This document shows, piece after piece, positions 11,937 to 60,200 of a stretch of 61,527 bases of DNA. The stretch covers positions 1 through 61,527 of IMG/VR virus record IMGVR_UViG_3300009506_000028; one strand, 5' to 3'. The position numbers and the translations under genes are program-made. Each line of letters begins with the position of its first letter. The first letter of the stretch is position 1. The notes beneath the pieces are model-generated. The model had not been told where the DNA came from. It saw only the letters and a program-made list of their open reading frames with translations, and ran no database searches. The stretch is from a virus.

Positions 11937-12595
11937 CAGAATCGTCCATCGTCAGGATCGTAGCTCTTGCGGTGCTGCCACTCCTCATCAATAGCAGATG
12001 AGGCGGGCCCAAACTCCTCCTCAAAGAGTGAGTAGGCTGCGGCAGCCTTGGAGGTGTCCTTTATCTCATCGTCATCGATGGAGTAGGCACGGTATCGCAT
12101 CCAGTGGACCAGCTTCTCGTGGTACCTGGATTTGATCTCGGGGGTGTCCGTTACGTCATTCATGGGTGTCAGCGGTGTTCTGACTACCGTAAGGGACAGA
12201 GTGTCCACGACAAGCGGAGTCCGCCATAGACGTAGCGTGTCCGTTTCGAAGTCAGTCATGTAAGCCTCAATGGTGCCGGTAGCTGACTCCCAGTCCATCC
12301 CGGTGTCATCGAGGTCCAGGTGACTTATCTGCTGTAGGGGTCTGTTGCGGCTGGCCAGCTTGGCGCGGCGGACAAAGATGACTGACTCATGGAGAGGATA
12401 GGATGGCGTATTAGCCAGGACGTTGATCGTACAGACGGCCGCTGTAGTAGAATCGATAAGGAGGCGGGCACGACGGGCCGCCTCCTTTTCTGCTTCATTC
12501 AGATATAGGAAAAGCGCCTCATCGCTCCATTTATAGGGAGCTTCAAGGTCGTTATTCTGTATCCGGAACAGCCTGATTATGTCTCCAGCGTTCAT
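11936..12595 (-). CDS. Head-tail adaptor protein (219 aa)
   Basis: The N terminus (DIIRLFRIQNNDLEAPYKWS, then a helical stretch with LNEAEKEAARRARLL) and the middle segment with LPLQQ-like and RTPL patterns match the general style of podoviral adaptors that dock under the portal. The C terminus has the helical segment HEKLVHWMRYRAY seen in such proteins. It overlaps the upstream methyltransferase-heptosyltransferase gene by 44 bases and is directly followed by the nozzle-like gene. The role is likely but not proven. Confidence 0.75.
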   Translation of the reverse strand: MNAGDIIRLFRIQNNDLEAPYKWSDEALFLYLNEAEKEAARRARLLIDSTTAAVCTINVLANTPSYPLHESVIFVRRAKLASRNRPLQQISHLDLDDTGMDWESATGTIEAYMTDFETDTLRLWRTPLVVDTLSLTVVRTPLTPMNDVTDTPEIKSRYHEKLVHWMRYRAYSIDDDEIKDTSKAAAAYSLFEEEFGPASSAIDEEWQHRKSYDPDDGRF

Positions 12596-14147
12596 ATTGC
12601 ACCTTTATTGCCTCAAAGACCCCATCAGGATCAATGGCAGCGGCACAAATGGCCGCCCCTGTTTTCTCATGAATGGGGCATGACCCACGGCCATGATGTA
12701 GTAAGTGGCACGGGTGGCACGGCGCTATCTGACGATCAGGGGTGATAGTAGTCGTGTTCTTCCAGTCTCTTGTAAGGTTAATCTCGGATGAGTGAGACAG
12801 CAAGCAGATGGTGTGATTCTCCTCAAAGCTCACGGCGTTAAGGGTGCCGGTCTCAGGGCCAATGACCAGATCCGCATGCTTGGCCAGGGTGAGTACCTGG
12901 CGCATGGTCAGCTCACCAGACTGACAGGATACCCTCGGCTCATTTTCCCAGCCTTGCTCCAGGAGGCGACAAAAGTCATCCCCAGTCAGGATGATGTAGG
13001 CCTCTGGTAATTCAAGCATGATCCTGGCCATCACATTATCCTGGTATGGGTAGGCCTTGTGATTGCTGGATCCTGACTGTGCCCACAGGATAATGAACTT
13101 GTCCTTGATGGCTCCTATCATTTCCCCCGCCCAAAGGTTCTCCTCTGGCGTCTGGAAGAAATGCGGATCAGGATTGAATGGCACCTGTGCAAGCTCATGG
13201 GTCCACTCGAGATAATTCCGGTTAAAGTACTTGTGGCGTACCTCATGGGGCCAGCGATAAGCGGCACGATAGACAGGCGGCAGTAGTGTCCCCTCAATGG
13301 ACTCAGACAGGTTGATCCACTTGTCGTACTGCTTTGCCCAGGTCTGCCAAAACGCATCAAGCTCGGCCTCGGGGATCACCCCCTCATCCTGGATAAACCA
13401 CTCGTCAATCCGCGGATCTTCACGGAGGACGGAGTAGCCCTTTGGTGTCGTGAGGAAAGTTACCTCATAGCCCTGCTTTTTCAGCTCTGTCAGGATTGAG
13501 GAAGCCTGTATCTGATCGCCATAGCCACCATAACGGACCACACAGGCCCGCTTTTTTGTGACAGGCTCCAGGTCGACACGGACCTGCTTGCCGTCTTTAC
13601 GCTTACGCCATACCTGATAAAAACTGTACTCATTACCAAACTCACCAGGCCCAAGATCCGTATCGCGGACCTCGTTAATGAGTAGATCCCAGCCGCTCTT
13701 TTTCCCCAGCATCACCATACGGCGGATAATATCCTCCGGCCGATAGTCATGCTTATGGTCAGGGTTTGCACCCGGCTTCCCTATGTTGGGATAGAGGTCG
13801 GCATGCGGCAGATACAGAATAAGGTACCCGCCAGGTTTCAGGACTCGCCACCACTCTGCCAGGGCAGCGTGATAGTTCTGGATATGCTCCAGGAGGTGGG
13901 AGCTGAATACATAGTCCATGGTGCCATCACCAAACATGTCCAGTTTCTCGCATGTAGGGGTGCTGACATAGGGGGCTTGTGCTTGCTGGTGTCCCCAGTG
14001 GTGTCCATTGTCGACACCGATAGCGGTGGGGATTATCTTGAATGGGCCACAGCCAAGGTCAAGGCCTCTGCCTCGTAACCATCGCAGTGCCAGGTGTTTG
14101 ATCTTTGCCGATTCGTTGCCTTGTGGATCGCCTGCTCTCCAGACCAT
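12552..14147 (-). CDS. SAM methyltransferase fused to GT9 heptosyltransferase (531 aa)
   Basis: Residues about 20-165 are a class I methyltransferase: the SAM loop GLDLGCGPFK begins at about residue 28, and a later FSSHLLEHI helix and LKPGGYLILYLPH strand match the type-11 family. Residues about 195-525 are a GT9 (ADP-heptose:LPS heptosyltransferase type) fold. It opens with RACVVRYGGYGDQIQASS and has the donor-site signature DLVIGPETGTLNA at about 425. Near the C terminus is a four-Cys cluster, C-x2-C-x9-C-x10-C, comparable to the Cys motifs of WaaF-like and autotransporter heptosyltransferases. The gene lies inside the virion cluster, between capsid-side genes and the adaptor, so the acceptor may be a virion protein. 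That is inference. Confidence 0.9.
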   Translation of the reverse strand: MVWRAGDPQGNESAKIKHLALRWLRGRGLDLGCGPFKIIPTAIGVDNGHHWGHQQAQAPYVSTPTCEKLDMFGDGTMDYVFSSHLLEHIQNYHAALAEWWRVLKPGGYLILYLPHADLYPNIGKPGANPDHKHDYRPEDIIRRMVMLGKKSGWDLLINEVRDTDLGPGEFGNEYSFYQVWRKRKDGKQVRVDLEPVTKKRACVVRYGGYGDQIQASSILTELKKQGYEVTFLTTPKGYSVLREDPRIDEWFIQDEGVIPEAELDAFWQTWAKQYDKWINLSESIEGTLLPPVYRAAYRWPHEVRHKYFNRNYLEWTHELAQVPFNPDPHFFQTPEENLWAGEMIGAIKDKFIILWAQSGSSNHKAYPYQDNVMARIMLELPEAYIILTGDDFCRLLEQGWENEPRVSCQSGELTMRQVLTLAKHADLVIGPETGTLNAVSFEENHTICLLSHSSEINLTRDWKNTTTITPDRQIAPCHPCHLLHHGRGSCPIHEKTGAAICAAAIDPDGVFEAIKVQYERWRHNQAVPDTE

Positions 14148-15346: not shown

Positions 15347-16288
15347 TTAACCCAGGCTATCCCATTTCAGGATACGGGCCTGTGTTGCGTCAGTGTGGAC
15401 CAGACCAAAACCGCCCAGGTAGTACCAGGCGATACCCTTGGCTCGACCGTAGTCTCCAGGAATACGGCCACGGATCTCCTCCGGTACCGCTACCCCCTCC
15501 GCTACAGTGTCGTCACCGAAGAAGTAAGCCCAGTTACTCTTGGCATTCGCAAAGGTTTCCTTTGCGATATTGGTCTGCTCGACAAAACGGACACCCTCAT
15601 AGCGGCCAATCTCACCGGCCAGGATCATCTGGAAACCAGGCTGAACATACTGGTGGATAGACTCGAGGTCGTTCTTGAGCTGACGGAAGGTTGAAGGATG
15701 GGCGAGACCCACGTAGTCATCGCCGGAGTAACCCGGAATGTTACGCTCCTTCATGGTGTCAACGATCGCCTTAACGTGGTCTTTACCCAGGGCTACGTTA
15801 TTGGTGCCGCCCACAGTACCGGTGGTACTCAGGGTGATGGCATCAGTCGCGGTGCCTGCGGTTGGGTAAATACGCAGCGGGGTTGCATTGAATTGGGCGT
15901 TAGCCTGCAAGTCAAAGAACTTTTTGGCGTCGTTTTTGAGGACCTTGTTAATGATCTCCTTCACAGGATGCTCAGAGAGATCATCCAGTTTGCCGGCATA
16001 CGGCACACTGTTACCGCCCTCGGTGATGGTCATGGTGCCCTGGACGATCTTAAAGTTCGTCTCAGGCATGGTGTCGGTTTCCGTCAGGGTTGTACCCTGG
16101 GTAACCACGTCCTGATACACGTTCCAGTGGAAGGTATCACCCTTATTTTTACCTTGAGCGGCAGCGTCCTTGATATCTGCAAACTGACGGAACTTACAAA
16201 GCGGCTGTACCGCTGTGCGGAGTTCCTTAGACAGATTCTTGGCGCTCATGTAACCGCCCAGGGTATTAACTACCCATAGCTGTGACAT
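15347..16288 (-). CDS. Major capsid protein, N4 gp56-like (313 aa)
   Basis: The sequence has the layout of HK97-fold coat proteins of the N4-gp56 type. There is an N-terminal segment with LSKELRTAVQPLCKFRQFAD. A beta-rich domain has FHWNVYQDV and a TITEGGNSVPYAGKL strand. A long helix has VKEIINKVLKNDAKKFFDLQ. A C-terminal domain has FVEQTNIAKE and an aromatic AWYYLGGFGLVHTD ending. It is preceded by an acidic scaffold-like gene and portal, the expected order, and followed by a leaky terminator. It is shorter than N4 gp56 itself, so the subfamily is tentative, but the capsid role is well supported. Confidence 0.85.
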   Translation of the reverse strand: MSQLWVVNTLGGYMSAKNLSKELRTAVQPLCKFRQFADIKDAAAQGKNKGDTFHWNVYQDVVTQGTTLTETDTMPETNFKIVQGTMTITEGGNSVPYAGKLDDLSEHPVKEIINKVLKNDAKKFFDLQANAQFNATPLRIYPTAGTATDAITLSTTGTVGGTNNVALGKDHVKAIVDTMKERNIPGYSGDDYVGLAHPSTFRQLKNDLESIHQYVQPGFQMILAGEIGRYEGVRFVEQTNIAKETFANAKSNWAYFFGDDTVAEGVAVPEEIRGRIPGDYGRAKGIAWYYLGGFGLVHTDATQARILKWDSLG

Positions 16289-22473: not shown

Positions 22474-22778
22474 TTCAGGTCAAGCTCCCACTTCCCCTTG
22501 AGTCCGCTACCGGCATCCGCCTCGATGATGGCGGTATAGCTAGACCCGGAGGTGAGGACAAGAACATCCTCTAGGGTTGCCCGGTACCGGCCGTTTGAGC
22601 CAGTCACATAGGTCATGGTTGTCGGCCATGCCTGTCCGGATACCTCGACACCACTGGAGTCCTTGAGCGTCACTGTAACTGTGGCGGCGTTCTCATAGTC
22701 GCCAGTGGCCACCCCTTGCAACCCCACCAGTTCAAGGATGTGGTCGTTTCCTTCATAGATTAACTGTACTGAACTCAT
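22455..22778 (-). CDS. Small beta-rich structural protein (107 aa)
   Basis: A short Ig-like, beta-rich protein (VTVTLKDSSGVEVSG and YTAIIEADAGSGLKGKW are visible). This style occurs in phage proteins that sit beside fibre genes. It starts in the last codons of the 1,510-residue repeat protein and overlaps the start of terL. It may be a fibre-associated or decoration domain, with no specific family assigned. Confidence 0.65.
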   Translation of the reverse strand: MSSVQLIYEGNDHILELVGLQGVATGDYENAATVTVTLKDSSGVEVSGQAWPTTMTYVTGSNGRYRATLEDVLVLTSGSSYTAIIEADAGSGLKGKWELDLKCQTRR

Positions 22779-25700
22779 GGCAATAGTCCCTTGGTTGTCG
22801 TGACTGCAGGGTCCACAGTCGCCTCACTTATCGCTACGGATGGGCCTATGTAGTTAGTGCCCGCTAACGCTGTAGTTACCGACGGATATGAATATTGTAG
22901 CGCCGGTTTGAGTTTATAGCTCGCCTGTATGGATGGTTCCACATGGAACCTTTCCGCGATCAACAAGGCATCCAGCTTATGCAGCGTCGGGATCGCCACC
23001 ATTTCAGCGGTAGCGCGGAGCGTCACCGTGACATGGGTATCAATGTAAGCGTACTGGGTGGCGATACCTGTCTGAGTGGTGGATCCGTATAGCAACTGGG
23101 TAAGAATAGCGCCCTGTGTTGCTACCCCTTGCTGGATGGTCTGGCCGCCTCTTATGGCCGACGGGACAGCCTGGAGGGTTGCGGTTGCTGCTGCTGTCAG
23201 AGATCCACTCTGTCCCCTGGTGCCGTTGGCTTGCTGTGTGGCGTCACCCTGCTGAGTGGTTGCCCCCGCATAGTCGACGGTCGGGATAGCGTTTAGTGTG
23301 GCTGTGGCCAGGAGGATCGCATTGCCCTCTGCGGTCCCTTGAATTTGTCCGGTCGCTACGACGGTGGCGGTGCCGGTTTGTATCGTGTTGCCTGTGTGAT
23401 CAGCCTGGGCATTGGCTACCTGTGTCGCTACAGCTTGCGCGATAAGGGTGGCGCTGGCCTGTTTCGTGGCGATAGCGGTCTGTGTACCGGTGGCGGACAT
23501 GACAGCCACAGCGGCGATCTGGCTCCGTCCCGTGGCCACCAGGGTAGCAACTGCAGACAGGGAGATAGAGGCGCTGGCAATTTTGACCGGTGCGGCCACC
23601 TGTGTGGCGGTGGCGGTCATGATGCACTGACCCGTCACGATACGGCCGCCTGTGGCTACCTGGGTGGCGACACCTGTCTGTGAGGTAGCGCCTACATGGT
23701 CAGCTTGTGCGGTGGCCTGGAGGGTAGCCGTGCCGGTCTGGATGGTGGTGCCAAGGACAGTACCGAGAGTGGACCCAGTAGCCACCAAGGTGGCGATACC
23801 CTGCTGAGTCGTCGCCCCTACCGCGTCAATGTTGGCGGTGACTGTCTGTGTCGCCAGGCCGGTCTGAGTCGTGGTTCCTTGATGATCTGCTACCGCTGCG
23901 CTCACCTGGGTGGCGATACCCTGCTGAATGACCGCACCGGCATAGGTGACCACAGCATTCCCGACCTGGGTGGCGAGGCCCTGGTAGATGACGGCACCGG
24001 AGTAGTCGACATTGGCGCTGACTATCTGTGTTGCGGTGCCGGTTTGAACCGTTGTCCCGGTTATCAGTCCGCCTACCTGGCCGCTGGCTACCAGGGTGGC
24101 GATCGCTGACTGGGTGATAGATCCGCTGTAGTCCGCTGTGGCGTTGGCGTTCAGGGTGGCTATGGCCTGCTGTACGGCAGCGGCGGAGTAATTCGCTATA
24201 GCAGAGGCCACCTGTGTGGCGATCCCCTGCTGTGTGGTAGAGGCCGCATGCTCTACCTGACCATTTGCCACCATGGTGGCTATGGCGCTCTGAGTGATGA
24301 CACCGGTCTTTTCCAGGACGGCCGTAGCAACCTGTGTGGCTACCCCCTGCTGGGTGGTGCTGCCAGGCAAGTCCAGGACACCGGTAGCTGTCAGTGTGGC
24401 TATGGCTGACTGGGTAGTGATGCCTACCGCGTCGACGTTGCCCACTACGGTCTGAGTGGCGATCCCCTGCTGGGTGGTGTTGCCCAAGGTAGGAGTGATC
24501 CCAGTGCTGCCAGTAGCTACCATGGTAGCGGTGGCGGTCTGTACGGTCCTGGCGCTGCGCTTGATGCCGACGGTAAAGGAGGCCCATCCCTCAGCGGCGG
24601 ACAGGGTGAAATCAGCGGTACCTGTAGCTCCTGCTCCAGGCTCATGCCATCCACCACCAGCACTGACACCACCAGCTCCCCAGTCTGCCGTCCTGGAGAA
24701 CAGGCCGCGGACACCGGCAGGGAAACCGGCATCGAACTGGGCATCTATGTGGTCACAGGCAAACAGGCGCAATACCAGGGTGTCAGCCCCGGCCATGGTG
24801 GCGGTCGGACAGGTGACAGCGGTACCGCTTCCCGTGCTGGTAGCGTAGGCGTCGACGGGTGAGACGTTATCGTAGAGTTCCCCATCAAGCGCGATCATCT
24901 GCGCATACATGGTTTCAGCGGAGCCAATGCTTGCGCTGTAAGAGACTGGGGTAGCGGCATCCGCGGCGGTGGCCTTCTTCCAGAACAGATTACCGGTACA
25001 GGATCCGTCAGAGATATCACCTGTGACAGAGGTGAAGCCGGTCACCGTGATGGTCTCGCTGCCGCCATCAGTGGCACAGAACAGGAGGAGAAGATCGCCC
25101 TCTTTAGGTGTCAGGGCGAACTGGAGGGTATGGCTTGTGGATGATCCGGCTACATTGGAGGGGAAGCCATTGGTGACTATCTGGCGGACATAGCCTAGCG
25201 GCTGGTTCCAATTCTGGTGAAAATCAAACGGGTTGCTGGAGATAACAGTCGCGGCGGTGTCAATCACCGTAGTGGTGAAACCCTCAAATCGATTGAGGGT
25301 GGTGTCGGCATTCTGGTTGCCGACGACATTACCCTGGTCCCAGGCAAAGTTAGTTTGATTCGATACGGTAGTAACAGACAGATAAGAGTCAAGGGTAGAG
25401 GAGATCCCGGTATAGGCCTGCCATCTGCCGGCGGTCACATTACCAACAATGGACCGGTTATTCGTGTAGTCCCAGGTCAGCCCGTGGTAAACATCCGTCC
25501 CAAGGGATGCGGAGGTGTTAATGGTAGAGGTGAACCCGGTGTACTTGGTGATGTAATAGTTAGGGCTAGAGAAATTAAGCATCACCGACCCGTCACCAGT
25601 CCATGCGGCTGGGCTTATTCCGGCAATACTGTCCTTGATAGTGGCGGTGAAACCAAGATATCTATCCAGCTTGTTGGCATACCGTGACTCACCAAGACAG

Positions 25701-27307
25701 ATATCACCCTCAAGCCATACTACAGAGCTCATCCCCACATCATTCGTGTTCAGTGTGGAGCTAACTACCAGGGTAGTGCTGAAACCGTCATACCAGTAAG
25801 CCACTGCCTGGTAGGCACTTCCGACTATGCTATATGTCCCGACTATCAGGTCAGTGGTGTCGTTCCCGGTGGTGGGATACCAGCCGGCATACTGGGTAGC
25901 GACACCGGTCTGTGTGGTGGATCCAAGGACATAGGGCTCACTGGTATCTGCAGAGATATAGCCGCCCTCAGTGGACGCCACCAAGTAACTGGACACAATG
26001 GTAGTGGTGAAACCGCTGTACCTGGTGATGTAGTGGGTGGAGGTGTTGGAACCGATGAGATCCTGGTAATAGGAGGTGATATCCCCGTCATTGACCAGAC
26101 TTAGAGAGGTCGTAATGGTGGAGGTGAACCCCGCCATTTCATAGGTTTCGTCGTAGAATGTCTCCTGATACCGGAGGTTGTTGTCGCGCCAGTCAAGGCC
26201 GGCATTTGTCCAAATTGGCCCAAAGAATGAGGAGTTAATAGTGGAGCTAAAACCAGACTGCCGAATCACGGTGTCAGAGGTGGACACCTTCTTGCAGTGG
26301 ATGACATTACCAGACTCGTCCAGGACCATCTGATAGGACAAGATCCTGGTGTCCTCCAGACTTCCTACAGGGTAATAATCAAGGACCCATGTAAAATCAA
26401 AACCCTGATATTTGCTGTGCGTAACCCCGTCGTTGACGTAGAAAATGCCGTTCTTAAAGTCGGTACCATAAACATTGGCCGGAGAGTAAGCGCTATCCAG
26501 AATGGTGGAAGTGAAGCCCTGGGTATACTCAGCACCTTGCTGTCCGTCATTGAAGGCGTAGACCATGCCGTCTATTCCTTCATGCACAGATCCCGCGGGG
26601 TTAGCCTCCATCCTGGCGTAGCCACGCATTTCAATGACAGCCGATCCAGCGGAGGCGATCGCATCATCCGCTATGGCGCTTCCGGAATAGAGGTTGGTCT
26701 GTATTGAGGTCAGGATCGTGGAGCTAAACCCGGAGAACTTAATCACCTCACCAACAATTGTCGCGCTATAGGTGGCATCATCGGACAGCATGTTGCCGTC
26801 AGCATCAATTGCCAGGCCTAGAGATATCCCGGCCGGAGCGGCGAAAGAGTTACTGATCGTGGTGGTAAACCCGGAGGTATGGACGTACTTGCTCAGGGTA
26901 TTGTTATAGACATAGGCCCCTGTGTCACCAGACCACTCCCATTCATAGCCGTACCAGGCCTCTGAGTTATGGGTAAGACTGGTTACCAAGGTGCCGGTGT
27001 AGCCTGACCACTTGTATACCTTCAAGTCATCAGAGAACAGCGCATCACCGTCCGTCACATGCCAAGAGGCATCCCTGACGGGCGTCATGGTGGCATGTGA
27101 GGCGGTGGACTTTATGGTCTCGGTGAAGCCGTGGAACCGGGTAAAGATGTTTGTATTCGAGTTCTCGCCGTAAAAGTCACCGTCAGGTGTCCAGGTCGCG
27201 GGCAATAGGTTGGTAGCCACATGCGATCCGGTGATCGTCGTGGTAAACCCGGAGAACTGGAACCACCGCGGTACATTAAGGGAATACTCGACGTACAGAT
27301 TTGACAT
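22775..27307 (-). CDS. Giant repeat protein: propeller-like repeats plus Thr/Gln-rich repeats (1,510 aa)
   Basis: Residues about 1-760 hold roughly fifteen units of 40-60 residues, each with a core like GFTSTI or GFTTTI after an aromatic residue. This is suggestive of beta-propeller blades. Residues about 760-960 look like a jelly-roll domain with HTLQFALTPKEGDLLLLF. Residues about 960-1430 contain about 22 copies of a roughly 22-residue unit with core TTQQGIATQVATA. One isolated copy of that unit sits inside the propeller half. The gene is flanked by a glycosyltransferase and terL. It is probably a host-recognition or surface fibre, and the Thr-rich repeats could be glycosylation targets. 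Function is inference. Confidence 0.8.
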   Translation of the reverse strand: MSNLYVEYSLNVPRWFQFSGFTTTITGSHVATNLLPATWTPDGDFYGENSNTNIFTRFHGFTETIKSTASHATMTPVRDASWHVTDGDALFSDDLKVYKWSGYTGTLVTSLTHNSEAWYGYEWEWSGDTGAYVYNNTLSKYVHTSGFTTTISNSFAAPAGISLGLAIDADGNMLSDDATYSATIVGEVIKFSGFSSTILTSIQTNLYSGSAIADDAIASAGSAVIEMRGYARMEANPAGSVHEGIDGMVYAFNDGQQGAEYTQGFTSTILDSAYSPANVYGTDFKNGIFYVNDGVTHSKYQGFDFTWVLDYYPVGSLEDTRILSYQMVLDESGNVIHCKKVSTSDTVIRQSGFSSTINSSFFGPIWTNAGLDWRDNNLRYQETFYDETYEMAGFTSTITTSLSLVNDGDITSYYQDLIGSNTSTHYITRYSGFTTTIVSSYLVASTEGGYISADTSEPYVLGSTTQTGVATQYAGWYPTTGNDTTDLIVGTYSIVGSAYQAVAYWYDGFSTTLVVSSTLNTNDVGMSSVVWLEGDICLGESRYANKLDRYLGFTATIKDSIAGISPAAWTGDGSVMLNFSSPNYYITKYTGFTSTINTSASLGTDVYHGLTWDYTNNRSIVGNVTAGRWQAYTGISSTLDSYLSVTTVSNQTNFAWDQGNVVGNQNADTTLNRFEGFTTTVIDTAATVISSNPFDFHQNWNQPLGYVRQIVTNGFPSNVAGSSTSHTLQFALTPKEGDLLLLFCATDGGSETITVTGFTSVTGDISDGSCTGNLFWKKATAADAATPVSYSASIGSAETMYAQMIALDGELYDNVSPVDAYATSTGSGTAVTCPTATMAGADTLVLRLFACDHIDAQFDAGFPAGVRGLFSRTADWGAGGVSAGGGWHEPGAGATGTADFTLSAAEGWASFTVGIKRSARTVQTATATMVATGSTGITPTLGNTTQQGIATQTVVGNVDAVGITTQSAIATLTATGVLDLPGSTTQQGVATQVATAVLEKTGVITQSAIATMVANGQVEHAASTTQQGIATQVASAIANYSAAAVQQAIATLNANATADYSGSITQSAIATLVASGQVGGLITGTTVQTGTATQIVSANVDYSGAVIYQGLATQVGNAVVTYAGAVIQQGIATQVSAAVADHQGTTTQTGLATQTVTANIDAVGATTQQGIATLVATGSTLGTVLGTTIQTGTATLQATAQADHVGATSQTGVATQVATGGRIVTGQCIMTATATQVAAPVKIASASISLSAVATLVATGRSQIAAVAVMSATGTQTAIATKQASATLIAQAVATQVANAQADHTGNTIQTGTATVVATGQIQGTAEGNAILLATATLNAIPTVDYAGATTQQGDATQQANGTRGQSGSLTAAATATLQAVPSAIRGGQTIQQGVATQGAILTQLLYGSTTQTGIATQYAYIDTHVTVTLRATAEMVAIPTLHKLDALLIAERFHVEPSIQASYKLKPALQYSYPSVTTALAGTNYIGPSVAISEATVDPAVTTTKGLLP
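22950..24545 (-). repeat. Degenerate tandem repeats coding the TTQxGxATQ array
   Basis: About 22 imperfect units of around 66-75 bp, each coding a core such as TTQQGIATQ. The DNA copies are diverged, so selection seems to act on the protein pattern. Related units occur at the start of the gene at 8591-9883. Confidence 0.8.
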
Positions 27308-27903
27308 TATTCAATCCCGTGAATATGTGCCTGGATAATGTCACAGTCAGCATAGAGCTGGTATCCAAGCTCTCGCAGTCTGTCACAGAAAAAGAAATCC
27401 TCACCCTTGGCCATCAGTCCCATGTCGTCGTACTTCTCCAGGAAGTAAGGCGGCCGTAGCTTCATTAGTACATCACGGCGGATCAGCATACCGGCCCCAC
27501 CTACAGCGTCACACTTCTGGAGCCCGGATCCTGGTCTGAATGGGTGGTGTTGCTTGTAACCGTCCTCCTCCTCTACATAGTCAAGCACCAGGACACCATG
27601 CTCTCCGTTCTTCCACTGTTCGGATGGGGCAGAGACAAAGGGGAGGTTGTGGGCAAGCAGGCGGTCGACGGTCCCCTGCACCGGCACATTGTCTGAGTCC
27701 AGGAAAAAGATGTGAGTACAGTCTGTTTTCAGGAACTCGATGATCTGCAGGTTGCGGTTATGGACCACCGGCATGGGCTGGATGATGGGCAGGAAGACAG
27801 CCCTCCCCGCCATCATTGACAGCTCATGCAGCAACCACACCACCGTCTCGGCCCGCATATTCCCCCTGGTTGGGGTGGAGATACAGACCTTAGCCTTGTC
27901 CAT
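27307..27903 (-). CDS. GT-A fold glycosyltransferase (198 aa)
   Basis: The opening KVCISTPTRG and the strand IFFLDSDN at about residues 66-72, a DxD-type metal site, mark a family-2-like GT-A transferase that uses a nucleotide sugar. Later GGAGMLIRRDVL and EDFFFCDRLRELG are also typical of this fold. The end has only a short C-terminal part, so it is a minimal catalytic domain. The gene abuts the 1,510-residue repeat protein by one base, which hints that this protein is the acceptor. The sugar and acceptor are not known. Confidence 0.85.
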   Translation of the reverse strand: MDKAKVCISTPTRGNMRAETVVWLLHELSMMAGRAVFLPIIQPMPVVHNRNLQIIEFLKTDCTHIFFLDSDNVPVQGTVDRLLAHNLPFVSAPSEQWKNGEHGVLVLDYVEEEDGYKQHHPFRPGSGLQKCDAVGGAGMLIRRDVLMKLRPPYFLEKYDDMGLMAKGEDFFFCDRLRELGYQLYADCDIIQAHIHGIE

Positions 27904-31477: not shown

Positions 31478-32047
31478 CTAGGTATAAATAACAGCACCCT
31501 TACCAAAGTCTGTCAAGAATATTTGATCCTCATCGTATAACTCGTTGATTGCCTTGGTGGCACCATCCAGGAGCCCATAGTCATCAAAAACCATCACCCC
31601 ACCCTTTACCATCATGGGCCCAAGCGCCTGGACAGTCTCCGTGATAGAGCGGTACTGATCACAGTCGACATGGACAAAGGCGATAGGCGGCATTTCTATC
31701 ATGCTGTCAGGAAAGACTCCTTTGGTGATGATGGCGTCAGGGATAGCCTGAGTCACAATCTCCAGGGATGTGTCATTGAAATCACCGACGGGATGACCGT
31801 CACCCTTCTCTGGCTCTGAGTAGGGGATCCCCTCAAAAGTGTCATACAAGTACAGGGGGCGGTTCTGTTCCCGTGCCACTTCATTGAGCTGGTAGGCAGT
31901 CCCTCCCCTGAATACCCCCACCTCGACAAAGCACCCATCAGGGGTATAAGAGGCGATATTACAGAGGCTCATGATTGCGCCAGGGTGCACCACTGATATG
32001 GGGCCAGGCTTTAACTGGTAAAATCCTTTCTTGAAGGGCTTGCTCAT
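31478..32047 (-). CDS. TylF-like O-methyltransferase (189 aa)
   Basis: The SAM-binding motif EVGVFRGGTA is at residues 42-51, the acidic motif YDTFEGIP at about 68-75, and HVDCDQY plus FDDYG at about 126-132 and 154-158. These match the macrocin-O-methyltransferase type, which methylates sugar hydroxyls in a metal-dependent way. It is the last gene of the accessory leftward module. A sugar-methylating enzyme fits the other glycan genes of this phage, though the substrate is unknown. Confidence 0.85.
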   Translation of the reverse strand: MSKPFKKGFYQLKPGPISVVHPGAIMSLCNIASYTPDGCFVEVGVFRGGTAYQLNEVAREQNRPLYLYDTFEGIPYSEPEKGDGHPVGDFNDTSLEIVTQAIPDAIITKGVFPDSMIEMPPIAFVHVDCDQYRSITETVQALGPMMVKGGVMVFDDYGLLDGATKAINELYDEDQIFLTDFGKGAVIYT

Positions 32048-43896: not shown

Positions 43897-44263
43897 CCCC
43901 GCCCCCTTGATCTTCCTTGCTCTTGCGGACAATAGACTCAATGGGGCATTTCCCTTTTTGTGGACAGGTCTCACAGTCGTGATCACCGATGTTTATAAAC
44001 CCAACCTTATCGCCATATTGTTGCGCGATCTTTTCCATTTCTTCACGCGCCATCCGGTCTGTGATAGCAGGGAATTGTTTTGCTCCCTCAGCGGCGAAAG
44101 AGCGGAGGATATTGGCAAAGGATCGCGCCTGCTCCATATCCTGGGCATACACGGGCTCACCACTCTCACGACGATGGATAAAGCCGTTAGCTGCAGCTCC
44201 CATCCTGATAAGAGACTCAATCGCCTTATCGTCGACCTCAATTACAAGCTGTTTCTTACTCAT
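43880..44263 (-). CDS. Hypothetical protein with C-terminal CxxC motif (127 aa)
   Basis: A helical protein (QLVIEVDDKAIESLIRMG and ARSFANILRSFAAEGAKQF) with DCETCPQKGKCPIES near the end. GGAGAG precedes the ATG. No family is recognised. The C-terminal motif may bind zinc. It overlaps the start of the Dam gene. Confidence 0.65.
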   Translation of the reverse strand: MSKKQLVIEVDDKAIESLIRMGAAANGFIHRRESGEPVYAQDMEQARSFANILRSFAAEGAKQFPAITDRMAREEMEKIAQQYGDKVGFINIGDHDCETCPQKGKCPIESIVRKSKEDQGGGDESVH

Positions 44264-44420: not shown

Positions 44421-45275
44421 TTAAAATGGTATGGATGGGTCGTAGCTAAATCCTGCCCCGTAGCTAAACCGGTTCATCATGTCGCAATGGTTCGCCTCGA
44501 TGCGATCGACCTGCTCTGGCGTCAGCTTGGTCATCCATCCGCCCGCCTCACCGTGACTGAAAAAGGTACCGTTTTGCGTCTCACGGAATCCCCTCTCTTG
44601 CTCCTGTCGCTGAACCCTGTCAAAGCTCACCGCCTCCAGTGAGGCAGCAATCTTTGCGTAGTCGTTCTCCAATCCGAAGGCTTCCACGATGGTGGTGAAA
44701 GTTGTGATCGGGGCGTTCTGCATATCTTCATAGCGGATTATTTCCACCGGGAAAACGTCGCTTTCTTTCAGCCTCAACCATGATCCGACATGGGTCGACC
44801 AGGAACCAAGCCAGTGATGAGGGGAATGATTATTCTGCTTTATGGCATAACCATCGGTGCCCATGATCTCAATCGCTCTATCAATGCTGACAGCCATGTG
44901 TTCAGCCAGCGAAACCGCCACATCACGCGGATCGCGGACGATGTAAATAGCGGAGTCAGTCAGTGATGCGGGGATCAGATGGGCATCATGTATCTTGGCG
45001 TTGGCGTTGTGGGTTTTCACCACTCGGTAGGGAGAGGGGTGTGACTGCATCAGGTGGATAAGCGCCGCATAGCGGAGCATTTCCATACTCATTGGGTCAA
45101 CCTCTCGCAGAGATAGCGGGGAGACGGTCTGGTAATACAAGGGGTGCGAGTCAAGCAAAGAGGCCTGAATGGGGGAGTTAATATCATCGATCCCGTAAAG
45201 GTAATGATTTAAAAATAACCGCACCCAGGTATTACCGCTCTTTGGATAAGACGCTAACCAGTTAATATTGCTCAT
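44421..45275 (-). CDS. Sulfotransferase (284 aa)
   Basis: The PAPS-binding loop YPKSGNTW is at residues 10-17, a KTH segment is at about 87-89, and YIVRDPRDVAVS is at 111-122. These are the two phosphate-binding motifs of the sulfotransferase family. The length is normal. The substrate cannot be read from the sequence; carbohydrates are common in this branch. GAGGAG stands before the ATG, which overlaps the previous stop. The phage has no visible PAPS synthesis genes, so donor supply would come from the host. Confidence 0.92.
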   Translation of the reverse strand: MSNINWLASYPKSGNTWVRLFLNHYLYGIDDINSPIQASLLDSHPLYYQTVSPLSLREVDPMSMEMLRYAALIHLMQSHPSPYRVVKTHNANAKIHDAHLIPASLTDSAIYIVRDPRDVAVSLAEHMAVSIDRAIEIMGTDGYAIKQNNHSPHHWLGSWSTHVGSWLRLKESDVFPVEIIRYEDMQNAPITTFTTIVEAFGLENDYAKIAASLEAVSFDRVQRQEQERGFRETQNGTFFSHGEAGGWMTKLTPEQVDRIEANHCDMMNRFSYGAGFSYDPSIPF

Positions 45276-51558: not shown

Positions 51559-51846
51559 ATGGAACCGACCGAAGTACAGAAAAGACTCAAGGATATCGCT
51601 GCCAAGCGCGGTGATAATTACTCTAACCTGGTTTACCTCATCGCAAGGGGCCGCCTGGCTGCCACCATCTTGCGGGGTAAAGGTGAGCCTCAGCCCAATT
51701 TCATCATGGATACCGTCGACATGTGTATCCGCTCCTATGCCAAGGCAGTGGGTCTTGGTGATGCTGTAAATGCGGAGGAGGCCATCAAGGAGGCCGATGA
51801 CCTGATCTCCCTCCTCAAAGAGGAACAGGCCAATGGGGAAACGTAA
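51559..51846 (+). CDS. Small helical protein upstream of gmhA (95 aa)
   Basis: A helical protein (NLVYLIARGRLAATILRGKG and NAEEAIKEADDLISLLKEE) with no recognised family. It overlaps the start of the isomerase gene by 14 bases, so it is translationally coupled to it. Position suggests a role with the heptose enzymes or the recombination proteins. Confidence 0.65.
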   Translation: MEPTEVQKRLKDIAAKRGDNYSNLVYLIARGRLAATILRGKGEPQPNFIMDTVDMCIRSYAKAVGLGDAVNAEEAIKEADDLISLLKEEQANGET

Positions 51847-52477
51847 ATACAGGAAAGACCTGGAGACGATCAGCTTTATCCGTTTAGCCATCCTGCAGCG
51901 GGCAAGAATGCTGCGGGATCTCTCCGAGTCTCTGGTGGATGATATCGCGCTGTTTGCCAATATCCTGGTGGACACCATCACCCATGATGGGAATGTATAT
52001 ATTGCAGGGAATGGCGGCAGCGCTGGTGATGCCCAGCACTTTGCCGCTGAACTGGTTGGCCGTTTTGGCAAAGACAGGCCAGGCCTTCCAGCGATAGCGC
52101 TCACCACAGACACCTCGATCTTGACCGCTCTAGCCAATGACTACGGCTATGAGTCGGTGTTCTCCAGGCAGATCCAAGCGATAGGCAGGCCAGGTGATCT
52201 CCTTATTGCCATGACCACCAGCGGAAAAAGCCAGAACATCATAGCGGCGATCAGAGAGGCTAATGCCATTGGTATGGGGGTTGTCTTAATGACAAACAAT
52301 AAAATATCAGCCTCTACCGTGGTAACCAGGGAGGGAGGTGCCGGGAACATTATCATCAAAGTGCCGGTACCAGAAACGGGTTCTGACTACGTTCAGGAGG
52401 CCCACATGGCAATCCTGCACATCCTTTGCGGCCTGATAGATACCGCGCCCATCGAGATCACTATGGATGACACCTGA
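51833..52477 (+). CDS. gmhA: Sedoheptulose-7-phosphate isomerase, GmhA-like (214 aa)
   Basis: The SIS-domain motif AGNGGSAGDAQHFAAEL is at residues 58-74. ALTTDTSILTALANDYGYE is at about 89-107, SGKSQN at about 120-125 and QEAHM at 178-182. All agree with GmhA, which makes D-glycero-D-manno-heptose-7-phosphate. Ser63, Glu73 and His181 are candidate active-site residues. The host enzyme may be absent or insufficient. It is two genes upstream of the adenylyltransferase. Kinase and GmhB phosphatase are not seen. Confidence 0.9.
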   Translation: MGKRKYRKDLETISFIRLAILQRARMLRDLSESLVDDIALFANILVDTITHDGNVYIAGNGGSAGDAQHFAAELVGRFGKDRPGLPAIALTTDTSILTALANDYGYESVFSRQIQAIGRPGDLLIAMTTSGKSQNIIAAIREANAIGMGVVLMTNNKISASTVVTREGGAGNIIIKVPVPETGSDYVQEAHMAILHILCGLIDTAPIEITMDDT

Positions 52478-52820
52478 ACAGCGCATCACCAGGATGCAGG
52501 AGGAGGGCAGGGAGCGCCAGCGGGCCAGGCTGGAGAAAAGCAAGGAGGCCGCCAAAGATATAGCGGCGGCATTCCCTATTTTACAGGACCCGTTTCTGCA
52601 GCTCCTCAAGGAGGAGTATGGGGCTCGTGTTGTAGTGGTTGAGAACTTGGTAACCGGGCAGCGCATTGACCAAACAGAGAAATATGAGGCGCTGGATCAG
52701 GCATGGAAAGAACAAAACCTTCACATAGTTCAGGAGAGACGACGTGATACTGACACCGATAGAGACGATCATGATAGCCACCGCCATCAAGGCGCAAGGC
52801 GGCGTAGTCGTCGTAACTAA
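52467..52820 (+). CDS. Coiled-coil hypothetical protein between heptose genes (117 aa)
   Basis: A charged, helical protein (ITRMQEEGRERQRARLEKSK) with an Asp/His/Arg-rich end. Its start overlaps the gmhA stop and its 3' end overlaps the adenylyltransferase gene in another frame. No family is recognised; it is not a kinase or phosphatase by eye. Confidence 0.6.
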   Translation: MTPEQRITRMQEEGRERQRARLEKSKEAAKDIAAAFPILQDPFLQLLKEEYGARVVVVENLVTGQRIDQTEKYEALDQAWKEQNLHIVQERRRDTDTDRDDHDSHRHQGARRRSRRN

Positions 52821-53217
52821 CGGCTGCTTTGACCTCATCCATACCGGACACGCTGACTTTCTTACCAAGGCCAAGCGGCTCGGTGACTGCTTGATTGTCC
52901 TGGTAAATAGTGATGAGTCTATTACCCGATTAAAGGGTGAAGATCGGCCGGTGATACCACTGGATCAGCGTATGAAGATGCTGGACATGCTCAAGCCGGT
53001 AGACTTTGTTACCCATTTCAGTGCCGACACACCGCGGGATCTCATCTGCTCCATTGATCCTGACGTGCTGGCCAAGGGTAATGATTATTTATCTGCTGAA
53101 ATTGCCGGCTCTGAATGCGTCATGAACAGAGGCGGTAAAGTAGAGATAGTGGAAAGTGACCGTTCCACATCGACCACCATGATAATTAATAAATTATTTA
53201 ACAGGAGAGATCTATGA
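52744..53217 (+). CDS. HldE C-terminal-type heptose-1-phosphate adenylyltransferase (157 aa)
   Basis: The nucleotidyltransferase signature TNGCFDLIHTGHADFL (residues about 25-40) has the HxGH motif at 33-36. RLKGEDRPVIPLDQRM and LAKGNDYLSAEIAGSE and the final RSTSTTMII (about 140-148) closely follow the HldE/RfaE C-terminal domain, which forms ADP-heptose. The N-terminal kinase of HldE is missing, as in stand-alone HldC. The GTG start has AGGAGAG upstream. It would supply the donor for the GT9 heptosyltransferase at 12552-14147. Confidence 0.9.
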   Translation: MILTPIETIMIATAIKAQGGVVVVTNGCFDLIHTGHADFLTKAKRLGDCLIVLVNSDESITRLKGEDRPVIPLDQRMKMLDMLKPVDFVTHFSADTPRDLICSIDPDVLAKGNDYLSAEIAGSECVMNRGGKVEIVESDRSTSTTMIINKLFNRRDL

Positions 53218-53851: not shown

Positions 53852-54235
53852 ATGTTGAATCGTCGCAGTTTTTTACAGAAAGCGGCCGGTGCATCCCTTG
53901 GAGCTACTGGTCTTATCATGCTACCAAGCACCAGCGCCAAGGCTCTCCTGGAGGAGGGTCAGACCATCATCACCCCGGATGATGTGCGTAATGAGGGTAA
54001 GGTGATCACCTCTCAGGAGTACCTGGATGAGGTGGTGGAGGAGGCCAAGTTCGGAGATAACCTGGCGCAAATCGTTCTCAATGCCAGGGGCCCGATCACC
54101 ATCTACCGGGAAAGTGGTCGATTGGAAAACAATGCGGAGCTGTTCGTGGTCTACGGTGACACCACTGCCGGTGACAGGTTCAGCCAGCACGACAAGTATA
54201 AGTTGGCCTGGGCAAGCAGACAAAACCGATTCTAA
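53852..54235 (+). CDS. Protein with a Tat-type signal peptide (127 aa)
   Basis: The N terminus NRRSFLQKAAGASLGATG is a classic twin-arginine signal with RRSFLQK at residues 4-10, a hydrophobic stretch and an AKA cleavage site near 29-31. The mature part is about 95 residues, acidic then beta-rich, with no recognised family. Export of a folded phage protein is unusual. AGGAGAG precedes the ATG, and iteron cluster 3 lies immediately upstream. A strong terminator follows. Confidence 0.8.
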   Translation: MLNRRSFLQKAAGASLGATGLIMLPSTSAKALLEEGQTIITPDDVRNEGKVITSQEYLDEVVEEAKFGDNLAQIVLNARGPITIYRESGRLENNAELFVVYGDTTAGDRFSQHDKYKLAWASRQNRF

Positions 54236-54240: not shown

Positions 54241-54283
54241 CGCCACAGCCCTTATATTGCGCGGGTTGTGGCGTTTTCTTTCC
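54241..54283. terminator. Bidirectional terminator between convergent operons
   Basis: Arms CGCCACAGCCC/GGGTTGTGGCG with an 11-base loop. TTTTCTTTCC on the right terminates rightward transcripts, and AAAAAAT on the left gives a T tract for the leftward virion operon. It lies between the Tat gene and the end of the polyvalent gene. Confidence 0.9.
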
Positions 54284-57200
54284 TACCTGTAAACCTCTCT
54301 ATACCAACTAATCGCCTTTGATAACATTTCCCTTTCCTTGGGTGTTAGGGTATGGAGGAACCTGATCCTGTCTTTCTTGGCGATTGTCCCGAGTGGATGG
54401 GCGTTTTCAATTGACCGACCGAGATCCTTCCAGGTTACTCCCATCTGCGCCAGCTCGCGGCGGTACCGCTTGGCGGCTGCCTGATCCCCGTAGCGTAGTG
54501 CTATTTTGTAATTGCGTAACGCAACACTGCGCGGAGTCTGGAAAGTGCTGGATCCCTCGATACCCTTCACCTTTCTGTTCCAGTCGTGAACCAAACCCTT
54601 GATCCTGTTGTAGGCGATCTCTCCAGGGTCTCGGCGGTAGATGATGGCCCCAGTCCAGGATCGTGCATACCCTCGAGTAGGCGCTCCAGTCAGCCAGTCA
54701 TACTCATTTTCCAGGCTGAACAGCCGCACCGCTTCACGCTTGCGGTCGCTCATCGGTCTCGGATTGAAAACATCAGGCCAAAAGGATTGACCAGATAGAA
54801 GCTCCACCGGCGTCCTTATCACCGGAGTAACCCCGCCAACCACCTTATTAATCGGGGCTTTCAGGATGGCGGTCATAACATCACCCCAGGAAGCGCGGCC
54901 CTTGTCGATCTCGGTCATGGCGGCTACTGCATTCTCAAATCCAAACCATGCCAGGTAATCAGACAGGGCACCCTGGAACTTGATGGATCTGACCTTGCCG
55001 TCTGAGTCCTTCCCAAGGTTAATGTGTAGGCGCATCCGCTCGGTGACATCGAGATCGTCCTCATCATCACCAAAGAACAGATTGTTAAAGAGCTGCACCG
55101 CGCCATAGAGAAATGCCATCCGCACCAGTAGGCTGGTGGTGAGGACTGCCCCCACTCTACCGGTAGACCCTATGCCCTGACCCCAGGCGTTCCTGAACAG
55201 GCGGGTATACCGTGAGGTGTTGATCTCGAGCCAGGAATAGAATGGGATCAGCTTGTTACGGATCTGCATACCGTAGGCGGAGACGTTGCCGTAGTCGCCT
55301 ATCGCCTCACGGGCCAGGATGCCGGCAGCATCACGGTAGTCGGATTTAAGTAGCGTCTCTACCATTTCCGGATTGGATGCCCCCCAGCCCACCTCCGCCA
55401 GGTTCTCACCTCCAGCCAGGCGATCAGCATAATCAAGATAGGCTGCGTACCTCATCCAGTTTTCACGAAAGCGGGTAAAGTCCTGCAGGCCATTCCATAC
55501 CTTGTAAGCAATTGACCCAGCCCAATCCTTGAGACCTTTAACCTCCTTGGTTTGTGTCAGTCGGCCATATTTATCCAGGGCATTGATATCAGGGATCTCC
55601 TGGATGGACAGGCCGGAATCAAATACCCCGCGCTCTACCGCTTCCAGGTACCGAGGACTTGGATCGGCTCCGTGCATAACAGACCATAGTTCCTTAATGG
55701 CCTCAGGGAGACGGCTCAACATGTGGGGGTTGGCGGCGATCGCGGCATCCATATCACCGGACAGGTTATTGAGGTTGTACTTGATGACGCGACGGGGGTT
55801 AATCAGAACCCACCGTTTCCAGTGCCTCAGCGGTACCGCCAGAACTTTGTCAAAGACTCCCTCCTCAGTCAGCTCGCGCATGTTGTCCATGGTATCCGCC
55901 AGTGCCTCAGGGAGAACCAGCTCGCGCTTCTTTCCTCCCATCATGAGACCGGTGCGTATCCCTTGCAGCATTTCAGCGGCAGTGAGGGTGATATCCTGCG
56001 GCAGAATCTCGTCCTGGCTGGCCACATCCACCACCATGTCCAGGAAGTGATCAAGCGCCTGCTCGCTGACGGTCTGCCCTCGATACCAGACGTTGCCTTT
56101 CTCTGGCTGCCAGATCCGGTACCCTGACGGGATGATGGTGCGCCAGTCGTTGCGGCCCATGCCGGCGTCCTTGGCTTGCTTCTTAATCTCCGGCAACTTG
56201 TCATAGTTGGCGCGGATGCGCTCAATGGTATCGATCATCTTCATGTCGACCATGGCCCGCTGCATGAACTCGAACTCGGCCTCTATGTAGTTGGCGTTGA
56301 TATCCTCCAGGGAACCGGCGCGGTGCTTGGCATACCCTGGTTTAGGTTTCTTCACCTTCGAGGATCCGGCAGCGATCTGCTGCATGCGGGCATAGGTGAG
56401 GACCTGGTGACGGAAATAGGCCGGGTTTTTCAGTGTCTCAGCGCTGAGGACTCCTCGATTAACCAGGCCAGCGGTGATCTTGTCGATCTCATCCTTCCTG
56501 GTTTTCAGGCGTTGCCTTACCAGGTCATTATTGGCTACCGCCTCATCGGTGCGCCGCTTGGCTTGTGTCAGGCTCTCATGGTCAAGGGCAAAGGGGAGAT
56601 CGTGGCCGATGCTATCCTCGTAAGCCAGGTCATCAAGGAGAACCTTGAGACTGAACAGCTCGTAATCTGCCGGGTTCATGCCGCGGGTGATCTTGTCCAG
56701 GATGCGCTCAGCGGCATCCTTCGAGGCCTGTGGCGCGGCTTCCATCTGGCGTAAAGCCTCGAGCGCCTGGGCATACTCAGGAATTACAGGGAGGTTCTGA
56801 TAGTGGCGGGTGAATCCCTCTTTTATCTCGGTACCCCAGTCGCGGATCTTTTCCCTGAGGGTGCGCTGGTCCGCCAGTCCCTTGCGGGCATCCTCGATAC
56901 GGGTGCGAGTTTCCTCTGGCATGCTGTTAATGATATCGGCGGCCGCGTTGTATGGAGATCCCTTCTCCTCAGCGATCTCCCCTATCATCTGCTCACCAAA
57001 TATCAGACCATGTGTAGGTATAAGTTCTGGCTTCTGTTGTCGTATCGACTCCCCATCGGTAGTGATGGCATCAGTAAAGATGTTTAAGTGGATAGCGGAC
57101 TCTATTCTGTGTCTCAGGTAATTGTTTGGTACTTGGGTAATAAATAACTGCTGCCCTCCGGTTTGAACAGCGAAGTTCCTGGCTATTTCCTGAATTGATT

Positions 57201-60200
57201 TAATGTTATCGAAACTATCAGCATGCACCTCCATGATCCCACGAACCTTATTCATCGGATCAATTGCTATAAGTCCTAGATAATCCCTACCAACCTGTAC
57301 CTCTTTTGAAACTTGAGCAAGTTGGTTTTGATTCTTGATGATCATCCCGAGTACCTTGTGAGGCTTTACTGGCGTGTCCATGCTATAGGTGTGAGGCATG
57401 GCCTCCTCTCTGATATCAGTCATGAGACGGCCGCCAGGATCGGCATAAATCATGCCGAAGCTATTAGAGTTAATTACTATGTGGGCAATGAACCCAGGGA
57501 CAGAGGAGGCAAATTTGCGGGTAGCATTAACATCACCAATGGATGGGGACGGGTTACCGCTTGGGTGATTGTGAAGAAGGAAATACCCATCACCGCCAAG
57601 ATTGTTTATCTGACGTTCCAGCTCTGCAAAATTCTCCTCATTATCAAGCCCGTCCTTCCCGACAAAACTAGCTGTAGATGATGGTAAGCGAGAGGTAACC
57701 CCGGTTTGACCAACTACCTGGTCACCTTTCATGATGAAAACACGTAATGTCTCATAGTGTGGGTTGCGGTAAATCTGAGACAGTAGCGCCAGATCCATGC
57801 CGTTTTTTACAGTCTGACCAATAAGTTTGGCTTTGCTCTCCTCCTTGAACTCTTTGGGTATTGCGCTACCAAGAAGTGATGGCTTATGTTCAGCGCGGCG
57901 CTTCTCAAGGTCTGCCATCAGCTCATCAGCCATGAGCTGGTCATCCATGGTGGCCCCTGGTCGCTTCTCATAATCCACCACGCCATAAGGATCTGACGGG
58001 CTTTGCACGGAAGTTATCGCGCTCGGTGCTGCCCTGCGGTTCCCCTCGGAGACAAAGCGGCGTGAGCGTCCAATCAGGGCGGCGATATCGGTCTCTGTGT
58101 ACTCCAGATCCGTGAAGTGGCGGAGGGCTTCCTTGATGGCACTGACCACCTTTTGCCATAGGGTAGGCTGCTTTCCGGTCTGTGCCTGGTAAGCGATATA
58201 CTCCTCGGCGGCGACACGTCGGCCGAAATCAGTCTTGAGATCCAGCTCAGGATAGGCGCGTTTCACCAGGTCACGGATCTCGTTGACGTTGGAGAGGAAG
58301 ACCTGACGCATCAGCGGATCCAGCTTGTCCCCCATAATGGAGCGGAGACCGTAATGACCGACTACTTCATGGAGAAATGTCTCGGTCGCATCACCCTCGG
58401 CGGCCATGTTATCGGCCACCAGATAAATCTCCTTGCTGGTGTTGTCGAACCAGCCACGTACCATTGAGAAATCGCTGTTTGTCTCTTCCAGCTCATCCAC
58501 CGCGGCCTTGGGCAGGTCGTAGGAAGTGGGTACCACATGCGCCTTTGGCGCACCTGGCATCTGTTTGATGAGTGGCTGGATCTCATCATCGACGGAGCTA
58601 ACCTTTGCCTTGGTTCCTTCTGGAAGCGGGGCCTTGTGGAATAGGACCTCTCTGGTTTTCGATAACTGATCGCGTAGCTTGATGACAGCCTTGGTCCTGG
58701 CCTCCTCGTCGAACCGCTCCCCATACTTGGCCCACTTTATCCCGTGCTTATCCAGGATCGCCAGGGTCTCCTTGCTGGTCTTGTTCGGCACGACGGCACC
58801 GGCGAACTCATCCAGGGTGACGGCGCGGTGTGGTTTTGCCTCAAAGTATGGGACAGGGGCCTCCATCACGGCATCACCGGCCTCGATCCCCATGTCAATG
58901 ATCTTGCTAGGCACACCGCTGAATCCATTGGCTGACAGGGCGCGTCTCATTGCCTTCTCAGACCCGTACTTGAGACGTGTCCTTGCCCAGGTAGCCAGTG
59001 CCTTCATGGAACTATCAAAGCCAGCCCACCGGTCAATATCACCGTCCCAGTCCTTTTCGGTGTAGTACTCGACCACAGCCTCACGAAAGTCGGTTGTTTT
59101 CTTCTCGGCGTCTTTTCTGGAGGCCTCTATCTCGGCCTCGCTCCCTAGTTGCCACTGGGCGCTGTTGCGCATTTCAGTAAGATCGCCCATCTTTTTGGCA
59201 GCTACGGCCCGCGCTTTTCCGGGACCAAAGACCATCGTATCCTCTTGGGCATGGGTACCGTTTCGCGTCATGTACTCCACGATGTTCTCCAGGTTGTAGG
59301 CCAGCTTTCTCCCGCCAATAGTTAGCCGTGGCTCACCCATCATGCTGAGAACCTTGTTGGTAACCCATGCCTGGAACTGCGCCTCTTTGCCTTTCAGCTT
59401 TTTGTCCAGCCGCTCCTCGGTGGCATATTTATCAATGACTCTCGTGCCATATTTTGCCTGGTCGTTCCATAGTTCATGGAAGGTATTGAGGTATATCTTG
59501 CCCTCTTTGTCGGTGTAGCTGTTTCCTGGCTCCATCATGGAGTCAGTCTGGATCAGCTCCTCGACTGACGGCTCCCCTTTCTTCGCCTTGTCCAGCTTGC
59601 TGTAAATGTCATAGAGGTAATCATGGATCGCCTCTCTCGCCACGGCCCCGGCATCCTTATAAAGCTGGATGCGTCGCGGATCCTCTATCCCCAATTTCTC
59701 CGCCTCAAGGTCGGCGTTCTTGAAGAACTCCCTTACTTTTGGGTCAAATGAGATCGGGTTACGCGGCCGTGCATCGCGTGTGACAGGGCGGCTACCTTTT
59801 CCGGTAGTCTCCTCCAGGAACCACTCCTTGACCCCGTTGCTCCGTACCATGGCGCTAATCGCCCGCTCCGGGTCAATCTTCGTGGCGGTGTAGAGATAGT
59901 CCCAGGCCTCACTCATGGCGGAGGAGTGGTTTGTTCCTTCCATTTTCTCAGCATAGGGACGCATGGCATCCAGGAGCGCCTGAACATCTGCCACTTTGGC
60001 CTTTTTGTATTCAGGAACCGGGAAGGTTGAAGAGTAGGAATCCGAGTCATGGATCTCGACCTTGTTAGGGTCGCCCAGGTCTTTGGTGCCAATGAGGGTG
60101 ATCTCACCATATCCACCCAGCCCCATATCCCCGCGCACGACGGCAATAGATGGAACAGCAAACCCGCCCATCTTGTCGGCATAGGCTAAGTTGTCAGGGG

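Follow-up and report, generated by a model that had tools for sequence, protein, structure and literature searches.

The window, by which we mean the whole 61,527-nucleotide stretch of viral DNA analysed here, carries the same 144-bp direct repeat at both ends (terminal repeats, in an IMG/VR virus record), and the genome therefore appears complete. Adjoining its SSB/DUF2303 recombination genes are two heptose enzyme genes with a small gene between them:

51833..52477, plus strand: GmhA-type sedoheptulose-7-phosphate isomerase, 214 aa (profiles, PDB match, zinc and catalytic residues intact)
52467..52820, plus strand: small gene between GmhA and HldE-C, overlapping both, 117 aa (no relatives detectable in the fetched loci)
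52744..53217, plus strand: HldE-C-type adenylyltransferase (TIGR02199, HxGH motif); an internal ATG at 52771 is an alternative start

Consistent with the first-pass annotation, which had placed a GmhA-like isomerase at 51833-52477, the product of this gene scores above the Pfam cut-off for SIS_2 (96.9 bits) and finds its best PDB match in B. pseudomallei GmhA (E 1e-48). GmhA is clearly its best-scoring family, with 189 bits (E 7e-56) for the NCBIfam phosphoheptose isomerase model NF010546, whose equivalog cut-off is 276, and 163 bits for TIGR00441, which is again below the equivalog cut-off. The zinc and catalytic residues of N. gonorrhoeae GmhA are H61, E65, Q175 and H183, and the same four zinc-binding residues are described in the B. 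pseudomallei enzyme (PMC5387315); in an alignment with host GmhAs they correspond to H69, E73, Q188 and H196 of the window protein. Profiles and zinc/catalytic residues together confirm, at the level of sequence, that the protein belongs to the GmhA family. Since the gene adjoins SSB in a recombination/replication operon, the SIS protein might instead be a DiaA-like replication factor, or the two enzymes might merely divert pentose-phosphate intermediates without yielding a sugar product. However, the DiaA model reaches only 123 bits against those 189 and 163 and the zinc ligands are intact, and on these grounds we reject DiaA for this protein; with an HldE-C gene beside it as well, we regard this alternative as a whole as very improbable.

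The HldE-C-like adenylyltransferase claimed at 52744-53217 was likewise found there. Its TIGR02199 match (175 bits, E 6e-52) falls 6 bits short of the curated cut-off of 181.5, its nucleotidyl-transfer HxGH motif reads NGCFDLIHTGH, and the protein is 47% identical to its counterpart in one relative (G001); the copy in another relative (G046), which is close to that of the window, scores 200 bits and so passes the cut-off. These matches confirm the product as a predicted HldE-C/HldC adenylyltransferase. The single small gene expected between the two enzymes is present too, and profile searches of the window genome found neither a PfkB-type kinase nor a GmhB-type phosphatase, both of which had been reported missing. 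Because the genome appears complete, we take these absences to be real, and the host must therefore perform the two middle steps of ADP-heptose synthesis. Downstream of HldE-C, the gene at 53852-54235 (plus strand) encodes a small protein that bears a twin-arginine export signal; in G046, too, HldE-C is shortly followed by a gene whose small product has a Tat-like signal (L206:11743-12075). The genome end is occupied by a gene for a 2378-aa polyvalent protein (54283-61419, minus strand), which begins with a part resembling a methyltransferase and also contains a RadC/JAB-like stretch.

The remaining features that concern us are encoded on the minus strand:

12552..13562, minus strand: GT9 glycosyltransferase domain, C-terminal, residues 196-531 of a fusion protein (fold, PF01075 in relatives, hhalign)
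13563..14147, minus strand: SAM-dependent methyltransferase domain, N-terminal, residues 1-195 of the same protein (Methyltransf_11 E 3e-11, AlphaFold model)
15347..16288, minus strand: major capsid protein (from position, conservation and synteny; in relatives the fusion comes after the capsid gene)
22775..27307, minus strand: 1510-aa virion-cluster protein with Thr-rich repeats (repeat period, search in relatives)
27307..27903, minus strand: GT2-like (GT-A) glycosyltransferase candidate (PF13641 E 0.0015, a weak match below cut-off)
31478..32047, minus strand: TylF-like sugar O-methyltransferase (homologues in relatives)
44421..45275, minus strand: sulfotransferase, a possible glycan tailoring enzyme (PF00685 E 5e-24)

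A GT9 heptosyltransferase fused to a methyltransferase had been proposed at 12552-14147. When the window sequence is searched alone, Pfam returns the methyltransferase only, the best heptosyltransferase model reaches E 0.048, and a PDB sequence search does not see GT9 (with a profile, it does so weakly); PF01075 is found in 19 of the 85 family members searched singly. An AlphaFold model built from an alignment of 85 relatives (pLDDT 92.4, pTM 0.90) settled the GT9 nature of the protein, because the fold search showed GT9 where the sequence search had failed. Foldseek matched the C-terminal part to 3tov (GT9, E 4e-14) and WaaF (1psw, 8.5e-13), followed at lower ranks by WaaC (6dfe, 8e-9) and then TibC (4rap, 3e-7). 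In an hhalign comparison of the family with WaaF/WaaC, D211 corresponds to the catalytic Asp and K364 to the phosphate-binding Lys. Both are invariant in all 89 family sequences, as are R205, G207, G210, E285, E432-T433-G434 and the cysteines at 477, 480, 490 and 501. The modelled fold and the catalytic residues agree, confirming the C-terminal domain as a predicted GT9-fold transferase.

The donor pocket, in contrast, departs from that of the lipopolysaccharide enzymes. Where WaaC and WaaF have D-T/S-G-x-x-H, a motif absent from the 89 fusion sequences, these carry a nearly invariant E-T-G-x-L-N, with Glu for Asp in 89/89 and Asn in place of His. Heptose therefore cannot be assumed as the donor, and another sugar is possible. 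Thus, both domains of the proposed fusion stood up to profile and structure searches, but the WaaC/WaaF-type donor motif did not. The altered pocket, together with single-sequence profiles that barely score the fusion as a heptosyltransferase, favours an alternative in which the GT9 donor is not heptose, GmhA and HldE-C serve some other purpose, and their co-occurrence with the fusion comes from shared hosts and habitats; the distribution of the pathway genes, described below, also bears on this.

The fusion resembles WaaF/WaaC in its GT-B fold, in a catalytic Asp found early in the domain within a G-x-G-D or G-D motif, in a Lys within a K-x-x-P motif and in a four-cysteine C-terminal segment; such segments or similar cysteine sets occur in many other GT9 proteins. 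It differs from them in its N-terminal methyltransferase, its ETGxLN motif and its place in a phage virion gene cluster, and structure alignment gives about 11-16% identity. A comparison had also been suggested with the autotransporter heptosyltransferases TibC and AAH (the BAHT family), which form dodecamers and heptosylate autotransporter adhesins. With these the fusion shares a GT-B fold and four conserved cysteines near the C-terminus and, if our best explanation is right, it would likewise act on a protein. TibC, however, combines an N-terminal beta-barrel with a four-cysteine iron finger (PMC4358343), whereas the N-terminus of the fusion is a Rossmann methyltransferase, and the cysteine spacing is 339-342-358-370 in TibC versus 477-480-490-501 in the fusion. 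We reject BAHT membership because the N-terminal domain differs, and the lower Foldseek rank of TibC, behind 3tov, WaaF and WaaC, also speaks against close kinship.

A relative of the fusion is encoded on 316 viral contigs in one scan that started from an alignment; such pattern-based counts miss distant relatives, and many of the records compared are fragments. The best 80 of the 316 are 46-54% identical. An alignment was required, as the single window protein retrieved one relative from the viral contigs. The capsid gene lies upstream on the same strand in 101 of the 105 fusion loci with more than 6 kb of upstream sequence (median gap 1.1 kb), and the fusion is present in 73 of the 75 capsid loci that extend over 8 kb beyond the capsid on its downstream side, some of these loci having been fetched via the capsid. 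The fusion, situated just after the capsid gene, belongs to the near-core genes of a large lineage of uncultivated tailed phages. Copies also occur in bacterial contigs (Aromatoleum, Zoogloea, Polaromonas, Paraburkholderia, Pseudothauera, Geobacteraceae, Magnetococcales and others), several of them in the gene order terminase-portal-capsid-fusion, and some fusion-bearing relatives are prophages within such contigs; strains with a prophage of this lineage include Aromatoleum anaerobium LuFRes1 and Paraburkholderia rhynchosiae WSM 3937.

These prophages could also be read as a sign that the fusion and the heptose enzymes alter the lipopolysaccharide of the host, in its inner core or its outer sugars, while the phage infects the cell or persists in it as a lysogen, blocking superinfection or hiding the receptor. 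Most GT9 enzymes whose function is known act as LPS heptosyltransferases, WaaF is the closest named solved fold, and the hosts are Gram-negative bacteria with ADP-heptose. However, a gene just after the capsid gene on the same strand is expected to be expressed late, whereas a conversion gene more often lies apart with its own promoter, and the near-universal presence of the fusion in the lineage is that of a virion gene. LPS conversion genes are usually accompanied by membrane proteins, and we noticed no membrane protein genes beside the fusion. On balance we consider LPS modification unlikely.

Sugar-tailoring genes often accompany the fusion in its relatives. The ORFs scanned in the capsid-fusion gap (109 in all) included TylF O-methyltransferases (12), GT2 (six) and GT4 (three), along with sulfotransferase, FkbM and MptE-like genes. 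In about 20 related loci, TylF homologues 45-61% identical to the window copy stand immediately beside the fusion gene. In relative L071 the sulfotransferase found between capsid and fusion is part of a single protein (L071:7048-8739, plus strand) that joins it to a glycosyltransferase group 1 domain. In another locus a protein adjoining the fusion gene (L189:7341-8834, plus strand) couples an MptE-like (PF01973) domain to a methyltransferase; PF01973 is also present in Maf-type flagellin glycosyltransferases. The heptose enzymes could instead serve glycosylation of phage DNA, given that glycan-modified phage DNA is known (YerA41, PMC9023294). In the window, however, we noticed no genes for hypermodified-base synthesis and only a Dam-type DNA adenine methyltransferase (43300-43986, minus strand), and the glycosyltransferase gene sits in the virion module. 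We hold DNA glycosylation to be extremely improbable.

As to an acceptor within the virion, the first-pass annotation had pointed to Thr-rich repeats of about 22 residues in the virion cluster. Such repeats are indeed present in the protein encoded at 22775-27307 (19% Thr), but their period is mostly 20 residues, with a few of 22. No homologue of this protein was found in 34 relatives, so it cannot be the general target, and we reject it as a general acceptor. A protein with about nine LPALTL-type repeats, mostly 21 residues apart, is encoded elsewhere in the virion cluster (8591-9883, minus strand); it is better conserved than the Thr-rich protein, with homologues in 16 of 34 relatives. In many relatives a small protein is encoded directly after the capsid, and this product (14905-15279 in the window) is a possible candidate acceptor. 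A single ARAGORN call of a tRNA-Ser, antisense within a virion-cluster gene, is probably false.

We then examined how the ADP-heptose genes are distributed among phages that carry the fusion. Among 45 relatives not picked for these genes, 20 of which are at least 50 kb long, two have a pathway gene: G022 encodes GmhA and an HldE-N kinase, and G001 encodes HldE-C. Further fusion-bearing carriers, found starting from HldE-C and GmhA alignments, are G046 with HldE-C, G087, whose GmhA and kinase genes adjoin those for the terminase, G091, in which GmhA separates terminase from portal, and G075 and G076, in which kinase, GmhA, HldE-C and GmhB form an overlapping four-gene operon (beta-type kinase and phosphatase models score best). 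The seven relatives and the window make eight carriers, which are spread over several branches of the fusion-protein tree and imply at least five changes. The window, G001, G046 and one further row form a starred clade; G087, G075 and G076 group together at support 91, without a star, and G022 and G091 stand apart. The GmhA gene tree is poorly resolved, so that the number of GmhA acquisitions cannot be read from it; one of its rows, L261, was assigned to the fusion phages, but no fusion gene is present in the L261 record. No GT9 protein besides the fusion was detected in the eight carriers, with a profile that in some of these phages fails to recognise even the fusion. Scans of viral contigs with a single protein found nothing for HldE-C and, for GmhA, only GmhAs at 40-44%, mostly on short contigs, with the fusion absent.

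Set against the rate in isolated phages, a pathway gene in 2/45 relatives has a rough chance probability of P ~0.002. For the fusion in 2/10 further GmhA contigs and in 3/45 further HldE-C contigs, an assumed and generous base rate of 0.1% gives rough values of P ~4e-5 and ~1e-5, respectively; because the queries were drawn from the lineage, these chance figures tilt somewhat toward a link. Phage records overall contain GmhA in 11 and HldE-C in 59 of 50,697. The sampled host genomes encode GmhA in 16/16 cases and HldE-C in 15/16, which explains how members without pathway genes could still obtain the donor. The claim that the phage heptose enzymes are tied to a phage transferase has therefore gained comparative support at the level of gene content, in that pathway genes recur on separate branches and the fusion is the only GT9 detected. 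For the alternative of a non-heptose donor, the absence of pathway genes from most relatives adds to the evidence of the pocket, but the recurrence on separate branches, the two complete operons with the fusion as the only GT9 detected, and the rarity of both enzymes in phages all run counter to it, and we judge it unlikely. In G022, the neighbours of GmhA and the kinase are a radical-SAM-like gene together with a pyruvate-dehydrogenase-E1/transketolase-like pair (L169:6218-8853, minus strand), which hint at a different sugar pathway. Its terminase large subunit gene (L169:1567-3984, minus strand) is unusually long (805 aa) and looks intein-interrupted.

Our best explanation, which we hold tentatively and with a little less than even confidence, is glycosylation of the phage's own particles, in which the capsid-linked fusion would use an ADP-heptose-type donor to modify a conserved virion protein. 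The fusion would be made late, together with the virion genes, and would transfer the sugar to this protein, while its methyltransferase domain and the accessory TylF, sulfotransferase and glycosyltransferase genes would cap or extend that sugar. ADP-heptose would normally come from the host, and some members, including the window, would add pathway enzymes of their own for a larger donor supply. In the window, GmhA would take in sedoheptulose-7-phosphate, the host HldE kinase and GmhB would provide the middle steps, and the phage HldE-C would give ADP-D,D-heptose as the last step. Expression of these enzymes earlier in infection, with the SSB and recombination genes, would build up the donor ahead of late gene expression. 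The families of the enzymes, the intactness of their active sites, the fold, the synteny, the repeated co-occurrence and the presence of the pathway in hosts were all computed; from them we infer what the donor and acceptor would be, when the system would act and what benefit it would bring. A virion target would fit the fixed place of the fusion after the capsid gene. Several features count against particle glycosylation: pathway genes occur in only the 2/45 unselected relatives, the donor pocket has its own motif, and in the window the pathway genes lie about 38 kb from the fusion gene on the opposite strand. Furthermore, hosts that already make ADP-heptose weaken the case for an extra phage supply. 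The broader proposition, a lineage-wide system of phage protein heptosylation in which the near-core fusion adds a (methylated) heptose to a virion protein and is fed in some members by a recruited pathway, whether whole or in part, seems to us plausible, if well short of probable.

Single heptose genes in phages are already known, as is virion glycosylation in mycobacteriophages. HldE-C-like or GmhA-like genes are phage-carried, as here, in the cyanophages P-SSM2, S-SM2 and S-T4 (sugar-nucleotide genes) and in phage Cr30 (GmhA), and an HldE gene is described in a cave-pool virus (PMC11671562). In mycobacteriophages, proteins of the capsid and tail are modified by glycosyltransferases that the phages encode (Freeman et al. 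2023, Cell Host Microbe 31:1216, as relayed in PMC11256854 and PMC12619734). The system considered here resembles theirs in its phage-encoded transferase and in its proposed virion target, which is suggested here by genomic position, but differs in its hosts and in its single near-core GT9-methyltransferase fusion with accessory donor synthesis. We know of no GT9 or heptose in mycobacteriophage virion glycosylation. A capsid-linked methyltransferase-GT9 fusion was not found in the isolated phages searched, and the searchable, non-subscription literature gave no earlier account of a phage enzyme that heptosylates proteins, or of the fusion. What appears to be new is thus a near-core GT9-methyltransferase that is linked to the capsid gene and repeatedly occurs together with ADP-heptose synthesis.

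If our reading is true, heptosylation with built-in donor synthesis would join the known forms of phage virion glycosylation, and a virus would supply a rare bacterial sugar nucleotide for its own particle. In animals, ADP-heptose is in addition an important signal to innate immunity. A protein family that profile searches mostly annotate as a mere methyltransferase would gain a function, and since the hosts of the lineage include Aromatoleum, Zoogloea, Polaromonas and Paraburkholderia, it could be studied through their prophages.
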